Positions 8,503 to 40,358 of a stretch of 64,000 nt of DNA are shown in pieces (within the stretch, counting starts at the first letter, position 1; every line of letters starts with the position of its first letter). Position numbers and translations under genes: made by a program. The stretch comes from Natrinema amylolyticum (GTDB lineage: Archaea > Halobacteriota > Halobacteria > Halobacteriales > Natrialbaceae): contig NZ_JAIWPJ010000003.1 of assembly GCF_020515625.1 (NCBI RefSeq), forward strand, positions 372,001 through 436,000, written 5' to 3'. Under the pieces are notes generated by a model. The model searched no databases. It worked only from the letters and a program-made list of their open reading frames with translations, and was not told the origin of the DNA.

Positions 8503-8577
8503 GGGCGCGTAGCTCAGTCCGGAAAGAGCGTCGGACTTCTAATCCGACGGTCGTGGGTTCAAATCCCATCGCGCCCG
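8503..8577 (+). tRNA. tRNA-Arg (anticodon TCT)
   Basis: The acceptor stem GGGCGCG pairs with CGCGCCC. There are a D-arm (AGCTCAGTCCGGAAAGAGC), an anticodon stem TCGGA/TCCGA closing the loop CTTCTAA (anticodon TCT), and a T-arm GTGGG-TTCAAAT-CCCAT. The discriminator base is G and there is no intron. It decodes AGA. The 3' end is repeated downstream (see the scar entry). Confidence 0.95.
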
Positions 8578-8606
8578 TACAGCGAACGAAGTGAGCGAAC
8601 CGGCAC

Positions 8607-8785
8607 GTGGGATTCGAATCAGGGAGGAGCTTTGCTCCGACCGTGGTTCAAATCCCATCGCGCCCGCTCGCTGTCGCGAACAATTCGTGAGCGACAGCAG
8701 TACAACGAGATGGCATTTGAACGAGACGAGTCGCGCACAGCGTAGCGAGCACGTCTCGTCGTTGTTCATAATCCCATCGCGTCCG
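8607..8785 (+). repeat. Degenerate copies of the tRNA-Arg 3' end separated by hairpins
   Basis: The last 22 bases of the tRNA (GGTTCAAATCCCATCGCGCCCG, at 8556-8577) recur exactly at 8645-8666, and again at 8764-8785 with one inserted base and one substitution. A weaker T-arm-like piece (GTGGGATTCGAATC) is at 8607-8620. Between the copies lie hairpins: GGAGC-TTT-GCTCC (8626-8638), GCTGTCGC/GCGACAGC (8670-8698), and a longer pair with ACGAGACG/CGTCTCGT arms around 8730-8762. This is the appearance of an attachment site used repeatedly, but no integrase gene is present. Confidence 0.7.
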
Positions 8786-8932
8786 TGATTCTGCGACGAC
8801 CGCACGCTCGAGCAGCGCCGGGTGATCGCCGAGATGCTGTCGACCGGGGGTAAACGTCGAGGGCGATATCGAGACCGGGTGATCGCTCGAGTCACCAGCA
8901 GATTTTTGCAGAGAGGACCGTAACCGTAGACT

Positions 8933-39282: not shown

Positions 39283-40212
39283 ATGACAACAGTGACGAAC
39301 GATACGCAGCCGAGACACTTCCTCGATGTCGACGACCTCTCCGAGGCGGAACTGTTCGCAGTTCTCGACAGGGCCGACGAGTACAAACGCGCCGTCGAAG
39401 CCGGCGAGGATCACGCCGACTTGTCCGGACAGACCCTCGGGATGCTCTTCCAGAAGGCGAGTACCCGTACCCGGGTCTCCTTCGAGACGGGCATGACCCA
39501 ACTCGGCGGGCACGCGATCTTCCTCGGGGAAGACGACATCCAACTCGGCCGGGGCGAACCGCTGAAAGACACCTCGCGTGCGCTCTCGCGGTACGTCGAC
39601 GCCGTGATGGCCCGTGTCTTCAAACACGAGAACGTCGAGGTGCTCGCGGAGTACTCCTCGGTGCCGATCGTCAACGGCCTCACCGACGACGCCCACCCCT
39701 GCCAGACGCTCGCGGACCTGCTGACCATCCGCGAACACAAGGGCGGGTTCGACGACGTCTCGGCGGTCTGGATCGGCGACGGCAACAACGTCGCCCAGTC
39801 GTTCGCGCTCGGCGCTGCGCTGACGGACATCGATCTGACGGTCGCGACGCCCGAGGGCTACGAGATCGATGACGACGTCCTCGAGCGCGCCCGCGAACTC
39901 GGCGGTGACCCGACCGTCACGACCGATCCCGTCGAGGCGGTCACCGACGCGGACGTCATCTACACGGACGTCTGGATCAGTATGGGACAGGAGGACGAAC
40001 GCGACGTCCGAATGAACGACTTCGAGGGGTTCCAGGTCTGCTCGGACTTACTCGAGCACGCCCCCGAGGCGTCGGTTATGCACTGCCTTCCGGCCCACCG
40101 CGGCGAGGAGATCACGGACGACGTCATCGAGGGCGATCGATCGATCGTCTTCGATCAGGCCGAAAACCGCCTTCACGCCCAGAAGGCGCTGTTGAGCTGG
40201 CTGCTCGAGTAG
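39283..40212 (+). CDS. argF: Ornithine carbamoyltransferase
   Basis: It makes citrulline from ornithine and carbamoyl phosphate. The 309-residue protein has the motif FQKASTRTRVSFE (STRTR), DAHPCQTLADLL (HPxQ) and MHCLPAHRGEE (HCLP). It begins 25 bases after argE and closes the operon, whose product feeds argG/argH upstream. The last 48 bases are repeated exactly 145 bases downstream (see the repeat entries). Confidence 0.96.
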   Translation: MTTVTNDTQPRHFLDVDDLSEAELFAVLDRADEYKRAVEAGEDHADLSGQTLGMLFQKASTRTRVSFETGMTQLGGHAIFLGEDDIQLGRGEPLKDTSRALSRYVDAVMARVFKHENVEVLAEYSSVPIVNGLTDDAHPCQTLADLLTIREHKGGFDDVSAVWIGDGNNVAQSFALGAALTDIDLTVATPEGYEIDDDVLERARELGGDPTVTTDPVEAVTDADVIYTDVWISMGQEDERDVRMNDFEGFQVCSDLLEHAPEASVMHCLPAHRGEEITDDVIEGDRSIVFDQAENRLHAQKALLSWLLE

Positions 40213-40213
40213 C
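40165..40213 (+). repeat. 49-bp direct repeat, copy 1 (3' end of argF)
   Basis: These 49 bases contain the argF C-terminal codons, the stop codon and one base beyond. They recur without change at 40310-40358. Only one spacer copy is present, so this is not a plain tandem array. Confidence 0.9.
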
Positions 40214-40309
40214 ACCGACCGCGAGTGAAACGAGCGGGCGGCTTTTTGGTCCAGATTTTTTCGTGAGCGGTGAGTGGAACGAACCCGAATGAAAAAAGGT
40301 GGGTTGTAG
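40214..40309 (+). repeat. 96-base spacer module between the argF 3' end and its duplicate
   Basis: The spacer has T-runs (CTTTTTGGTCCAGATTTTTT) and GC-rich pieces such as CGCGAGTGAAACGAGCGGG and GTGAGCGGTGAGTGGAACG. Such elements appear repeatedly after haloarchaeal genes and may act as terminators or as small mobile modules (recollection, not checked). The T-runs make transcription termination of the arg operon plausible. Confidence 0.5.
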
Positions 40310-40358
40310 AACCGCCTTCACGCCCAGAAGGCGCTGTTGAGCTGGCTGCTCGAGTAGC
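40310..40358 (+). repeat. 49-bp direct repeat, copy 2 (duplicated argF end)
   Basis: An exact copy of 40165-40213 with the same orientation. It carries a reading frame fragment only, with no start. DNA after it (GCGTCGGGAGCGACC) is not related to the spacer, so the module did not duplicate a second time. Confidence 0.9.

Follow-up and report, generated by a model that had tools for sequence, protein, structure and literature searches.

The question raised by this locus is why the end of argF, an ornithine carbamoyltransferase gene, is present a second time directly behind the intact gene, and what the DNA between the two ends is. When the window (the whole 64,000-nucleotide stretch analysed) was searched for repeats, the duplication proposed by a sequence-only reading was confirmed: the two 49-nt copies of the argF end, here called G1 and G2, are 100% identical, start 145 nt apart and leave a gap of 96 bp, which is occupied by a module that we call M (Table 1). 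The spacer had been described as having a single T-run, which is slightly off; it holds a GC palindrome, two T-runs (T5 and T6 tracts) and one A-run, and the T6 tract is able to pair with A6. Its core, TTTTTGGTCCAGATTTTT, was expected 0 times in shuffled sequence, even with 3 mismatches allowed. As RNA, the spacer of this single copy folded only moderately better than shuffles (z −1.5), so the claim that M is structured rests on the family rather than on the lone argF copy.

Table 1. Features of the argF locus and of the tRNA-Arg locus, in window coordinates
Feature	Position	Strand	Basis
argF, ornithine carbamoyltransferase, 309 aa, host gene	39283..40212	+	ORF; NCBIfam TIGR00658, 417.5 bits; Pfam OTCace and OTCace_N
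G1, proximal argF-end copy (final 48 nt of gene and one base)	40165..40213	+	Direct repeat, 100%
M, left palindrome hp1	40215..40241	+	Predicted fold; equivalent position in relatives
M, core TTTTTGGTCCAGATTTTT	40243..40260	+	Shuffling, 0 expected; dispersed in Halobacteriales
M, hairpin hp2, closed by T6/A6	40256..40297	+	Predicted fold; compensatory changes across family
M, right end AAAAAAGGTGG	40292..40302	+	Sequence of spacer; sharp end in other copies
Short filler separating GGTGG end from G2	40303..40309	+	Variable-sequence counterpart at other targets
G2, distal argF-end copy, reading NRLHAQKALLSWLLE and stop	40310..40358	+	Direct repeat, 100%; coding retained in most relatives
tRNA-Arg(TCT), host of module N	8503..8577	+	ARAGORN
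N, core GTGGGATTCGAATCAGGGAG	8607..8626	+	Pattern match G000:C3:380607-380626; member of N family
Re-created tRNA-Arg 3′ end GGTTCAAATCCCATCGCGCCCG	8645..8666	+	Repeat copies; L344

Neither the duplication nor the spacer is unique to this locus, the spacer being one member of a dispersed family with the consensus T5-N8-T5, hairpin, A5GGTGG. The strict core followed by AAAAAGGTGG was found in 129 of 377 good Halobacteriales genomes, representing 45 of 87 genera, and the core with one mismatch allowed in 31 of 41 relatives; the reversed-pattern control gave 0 in both scans. In named genomes the core occurs at no fewer than 120 places, mostly in Halobacteria, and the genera among the matches listed include Haloferax, Halococcus, Halorussus, Natrinema, Halorhabdus, Haloarcula and Halosimplex. 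Variant cores such as CGCCCACG and GCCCCATC were also found. Across 178 distinct modules the inner hairpin varies and its pairs persist through compensatory changes: at stem pairs 2–4, 98–105 of about 136 modules have Watson–Crick pairs of several types, and just 1–4 have G-T. Covariation almost without G-T intermediates is unusual for RNA, and suggests that constraint or correction acts on the two DNA strands and not on a single RNA. Searches with M gave no match in Rfam up to E = 5 and none among the plasmids of PLSDB. A viral carrier was considered and dropped, the five IMG/VR matches all being of low GC and without flanking repeats, and taken as chance. Within 7 kb of the sites tested there was no integrase-bearing or larger element with the same repeats. 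Solo copies of M do not have terminal inverted repeats with a short target-site duplication, the duplications being 30–150 bp long.

Gene 3′ ends repeated after similar spacers, which the sequence-only reading had proposed looking for, were seen at many genes and in many genera. The layout at M sites is G1, the palindrome hp1, T5-N8-T5, the hairpin hp2, AAAAAGGTGG, a few nucleotides and G2. Among the matches listed from the named and viral scans, DNA to the left of the core recurred to its right over about 30–150 bp in 51 of 128; no recurrence of this kind was seen at the chance matches in low-GC bacterial or viral DNA. As a control, gene ends were predicted from codon composition in 105 named loci of up to 8 kb each, and were scored for a sense module within 200 nt and an end copy within 320 bp. 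The results revealed that 28 of the 46 haloarchaeal gene ends with M were repeated, compared with 0 of 464 without it (510 in total), and we therefore conclude that the repeated argF end is not a chance event. An earlier control with cruder gene calls had given 12/30 with M and 0/535 without.

More than 25 distinct genes are targets of M, a number taken from 40 C-terminus clusters, some of which are wrong-frame duplicates. Profile searches named argF, ileS, pheT, elp3, gyrA, etfA and the genes for NADP-malic enzyme, acetyl-CoA acyltransferase, an SDR dehydrogenase, a metallo-beta-lactamase-fold protein and an ArgZ-like protein, and the remaining targets were recognised by their C-termini alone. 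The intact gene lies nearly always on the T5GGTCCAG side of M. There are exceptions: the 5′ end of an opposite-strand gene is repeated at L188 and L213, and at L120 the repeated stretch is the 5′ end of purD, and the intact gene lies on the opposite side of M. The duplicated stretch is thus whatever DNA is local, gene 3′ ends predominating. M was also found between convergent genes without any repeat. Two regularities at the junctions were tried and rejected. G2 stops within 6 nt of the hp1 centre in only 12 of 72 cases; and microhomology at the M–G2 junction is clear at the thiolase gene and purD only, a seemingly long case in L119 having turned out to be an array with a variant core.

We then compared 30 argF loci across Natrinema, with one genome per species. 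Seventeen loci were filled, 13 with the junction seen in the window (type A) and 4 with a shorter G2 (type B); 3 held remnants and 10 were empty, so that alleles without the module, as the sequence-only reading had suggested comparing, do exist. The second argF end and the same module were present in 16 other species of the genus. One filled/empty pair is precise: the TAG stop is followed by CTGTTCGGTCCC in the empty locus L023, and the TAG that closes G2 by CTGTTCGATCCC in the filled locus L006. On an argF-body tree (quick method, SH-aLRT support), the distribution of filled and unfilled loci needs 7 changes, either gains or losses; type A alone needs 8, of which well-supported branches force 6. 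The sister species L004 and L015 have different junction types. In most type A species G2 keeps the reading NRLHAQKALLSWLLE and stop, and its differences from its own G1 are mainly synonymous. Over all filled loci, G1 and G2 differ at a mean of 5.5 of 45 positions, similar to G1 copies between species. L006 provides one example in which G2 is identical to its own G1 and the copies of its relatives have diverged, which fits conversion of G2 to G1. In another single example, the empty locus L023 resembles the G1 of L010 in its 5′ half and the G2 of L010 in its 3′ half, a mosaic of the kind predicted for a crossover inside the gene end.

To find which copy is the newcomer, we examined loci where the two ends differ. 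At pheT, four Natrinema loci have the order pheT, spacer, a module M2 and a convergent gene, the product of which by eye resembles eIF1A. Natrinema zhouii (CP059154) carries an extra end and a different module, M1, ahead of the native-type end, spacer and M2; M1 is about 95% identical to the module at another species' pheT. Since M1 differs from M2 and the extra unit lacks the spacer of the resident module, duplication of that resident module is excluded here. At etfA in L096, the proximal end reads EEFQ and stop and the distal one EEFEG and stop, as in the single-ended relative L066. At gyrA in L123, the proximal end reads DEE and stop and the distal end is several residues longer; the distal copy is probably the native end, judging from L123 alone. 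Where a judgement could be made, it looks as if the proximal end and the module are the newcomers. This differs from the earlier view that the module re-creates an end beyond an untouched original. The thiolase gene, with TCAG homology at its junction and a truncated second module in L261, and purD, with GGTGGCGG homology, fit local duplication or deletion via short homologies, and more than one process may act.

The sequence-only reading had likened the argF locus to a tRNA-Arg locus in the same window, and the likeness is real: 29-nt copies of the tRNA end start at 8550, 8639 and 8758 (100, 83 and 79% identical). The region 8503–8786 consists of the tRNA, a module that we call N, the re-created 3′ end and, at 8758–8786, a third copy of the end, now decayed. 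N has the layout GGGATTYGAAYCAGGGAG, hairpin, CGACCGTGG, and part of its sequence is the reverse complement of the T-arm. In a pattern scan with one mismatch allowed, 216 of the 283 good genomes, and 67 of the 78 genera, had a match. A tRNA, of eight amino-acid types in all, lies directly upstream of N at 41 of the 52 sites examined, and at 35 of these 41 its own 3′ end is re-created behind N, always starting at the T-loop GGTTC. N and M have the same GTGG right end, a similar layout, hairpins and a copy of the host's own 3′ end, which supports one architecture at both sites. That part of the proposed common mechanism stood; as to its other part, no copying step performed by the module was seen, and recombination in the repeats accounts for the observed gain, loss and spread. 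Overall the earlier interpretation is partly supported.

In one genus (G352 and relatives) M is amplified, three genomes having 55 or more matches each. There it also makes up the 76-bp inverted ends of a dispersed, repeated element of 1.4 kb that carries an ORF, and its GGTGG tip may thus be a transposon-like end. These elements (L328–L339 in G352, G318, G358 and G328, for example L330:452-1876) are often flanked by genes that converge on them. The ORF product is about 200 aa long and has a CxxC-x4-CxH motif; it had no match in Pfam or NCBIfam and nothing convincing in PHROGs or among PDB sequences. We looked for target duplications around the 1.4-kb elements and found none, which makes it less likely that insertion normally yields a long target duplication.

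The explanation that we tentatively favour is that M is a terminator-like module that is spread and lost by recombination in the flanking gene-end copies. The argF spacer would be one solo copy of a non-coding module that haloarchaea carry at gene 3′ ends, and would lie between two copies of the host-gene end. With two T-tracts and hairpins, M would probably act as a strong transcription terminator. In Haloferax volcanii, T-stretches are the intergenic termination signal, and a reporter with T5C showed 95% termination (PMC7237163), so M is well placed to end transcription; the few G-T pairs in hp2, on the other hand, may reflect a constraint that acts on DNA instead of a terminator RNA. The mobile unit would be the module with one gene end. 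Both flanks of M being homologous to the gene end, recombination could insert the unit into any strain with the gene, and recombination in the same copies could remove the unit or homogenise the copies. We infer exchange by homologous recombination rather than by a site-specific recombinase; the argF and pheT alleles look as ordinary recombination in homology arms could make them. This support comes from compared alleles alone, and neither a circle nor transfer or excision was seen. The sharp right end of M suggests a break or cut at GGTGG, and M might first reach a new gene by repair or end-joining at this tip, capturing or copying the neighbouring gene end.

Against this stands the possibility, unlikely in our judgement, that M and N are miniature integrative elements moved by a tyrosine-type recombinase encoded elsewhere, with G1 and G2 as attL and attR. 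Reconstitution of a gene end is typical of integrative elements, and direct repeats around the insert do reconstitute the gene end here. The constant T-loop start of the tRNA copies, across eight tRNA types, would also fit a site-specific recombinase, and because of this fixed start such a recombinase stays the main rival. However, a single core that serves more than 25 unrelated gene ends would call for equally many attachment sites, and argF itself has two different junctions. The searches described above gave no larger relative near the tested sites and no plasmid match, and their viral matches were taken as chance. We consider it unlikely that M is instead a transposable element making a long, variable target-site duplication of 30–150 bp. 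The occurrence of both orientations and of 5′ as well as 3′ gene ends (L120, L188, L213), the sharp right end and the inverted ends of the 1.4-kb element speak for it, but orientation is strongly biased, no transposase was found, the 1.4-kb elements lack flanking duplications, and foreign proximal ends face native distal ones at pheT and etfA.

Rather improbable, too, is a tandem duplication of the gene end and a resident terminator by hairpin slippage, with the distal module lost afterwards. Second modules, degenerate or truncated, do lie behind G2 at L004, L015, L143, L191 and L261, and the short homologies at the thiolase gene and purD and near-identical arrays such as L068 are in keeping with it; yet another module follows just 18–19 of 99 distal ends, L096 and L119 each hold two different modules, and at pheT this course is excluded. 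A lone recombination accident at argF, to which the identity of the two copies in this genome might have pointed, is refuted by the recurrence of the module and the second argF end in the genus and of the pattern at many genes and genera, and we give it practically no weight. Recombination in the gene-end copies remains our preferred, if provisional, explanation.

M resembles known haloarchaeal terminators in having T5 tracts and hairpins shortly past stop codons and in often lying between convergent genes, and differs from them in being one recognisable family with a sharp right end, patchy distribution and a linked gene-end duplication (Berkemer et al. 2020, PMC7237163). As in integrative elements and their remnants (attL/attR, cis-mobilisable), the gene is whole and its end is present twice around the insert, but the modules are 70–200 bp long, have no integrase and share a single core across many unrelated targets, every one of which has a copy of its own gene end. 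REP, ERIC and haloarchaeal MITEs are likewise short, structured, dispersed, intergenic and non-coding; unlike M, they make no gene-end copy, and solo M lacks the terminal inverted repeats and short target duplication of MITEs. The literature searched, with subscription journals mostly outside it, contained no description of the M and N cores or of such a pattern, which is widespread in haloarchaea and apparently undescribed within that literature. We know of no system in which a dispersed non-coding core is accompanied by a copy of whichever gene end it occupies. It is possible, although we lean towards doubt, that Halobacteriales harbour enzyme-less non-coding mobile elements, M at protein genes and N at tRNA genes, whose unit is the module with the end of the occupied gene, which would serve as its own homology arm and keep the host gene working.

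If this is true, short non-coding DNA can spread in a microbial lineage by using the end of a host gene as a targeting arm, with no transposase of its own. It would account for repeated gene and tRNA ends across haloarchaea and offer a natural model of how DNA can enter gene ends precisely and without harm. It would also warn that a duplicated tRNA end need not always mark an integrated virus or plasmid. The idea can be tested in culturable species, thanks to the argF polymorphism and the amplified genus. Tandem arrays of module and gene end with near-identical modules (G198:C1:2265331-2265690, G110:C1:663713-663882, L068 and L100) were probably amplified by unequal crossing over. In the amplified genus, DNA to the left of M is repeated after M as well at L297, L311, L323 and L326 (all in G352), and in three of these (L297, L323 and L326) what is repeated is the end of the ORF that the 1.4-kb element itself carries.
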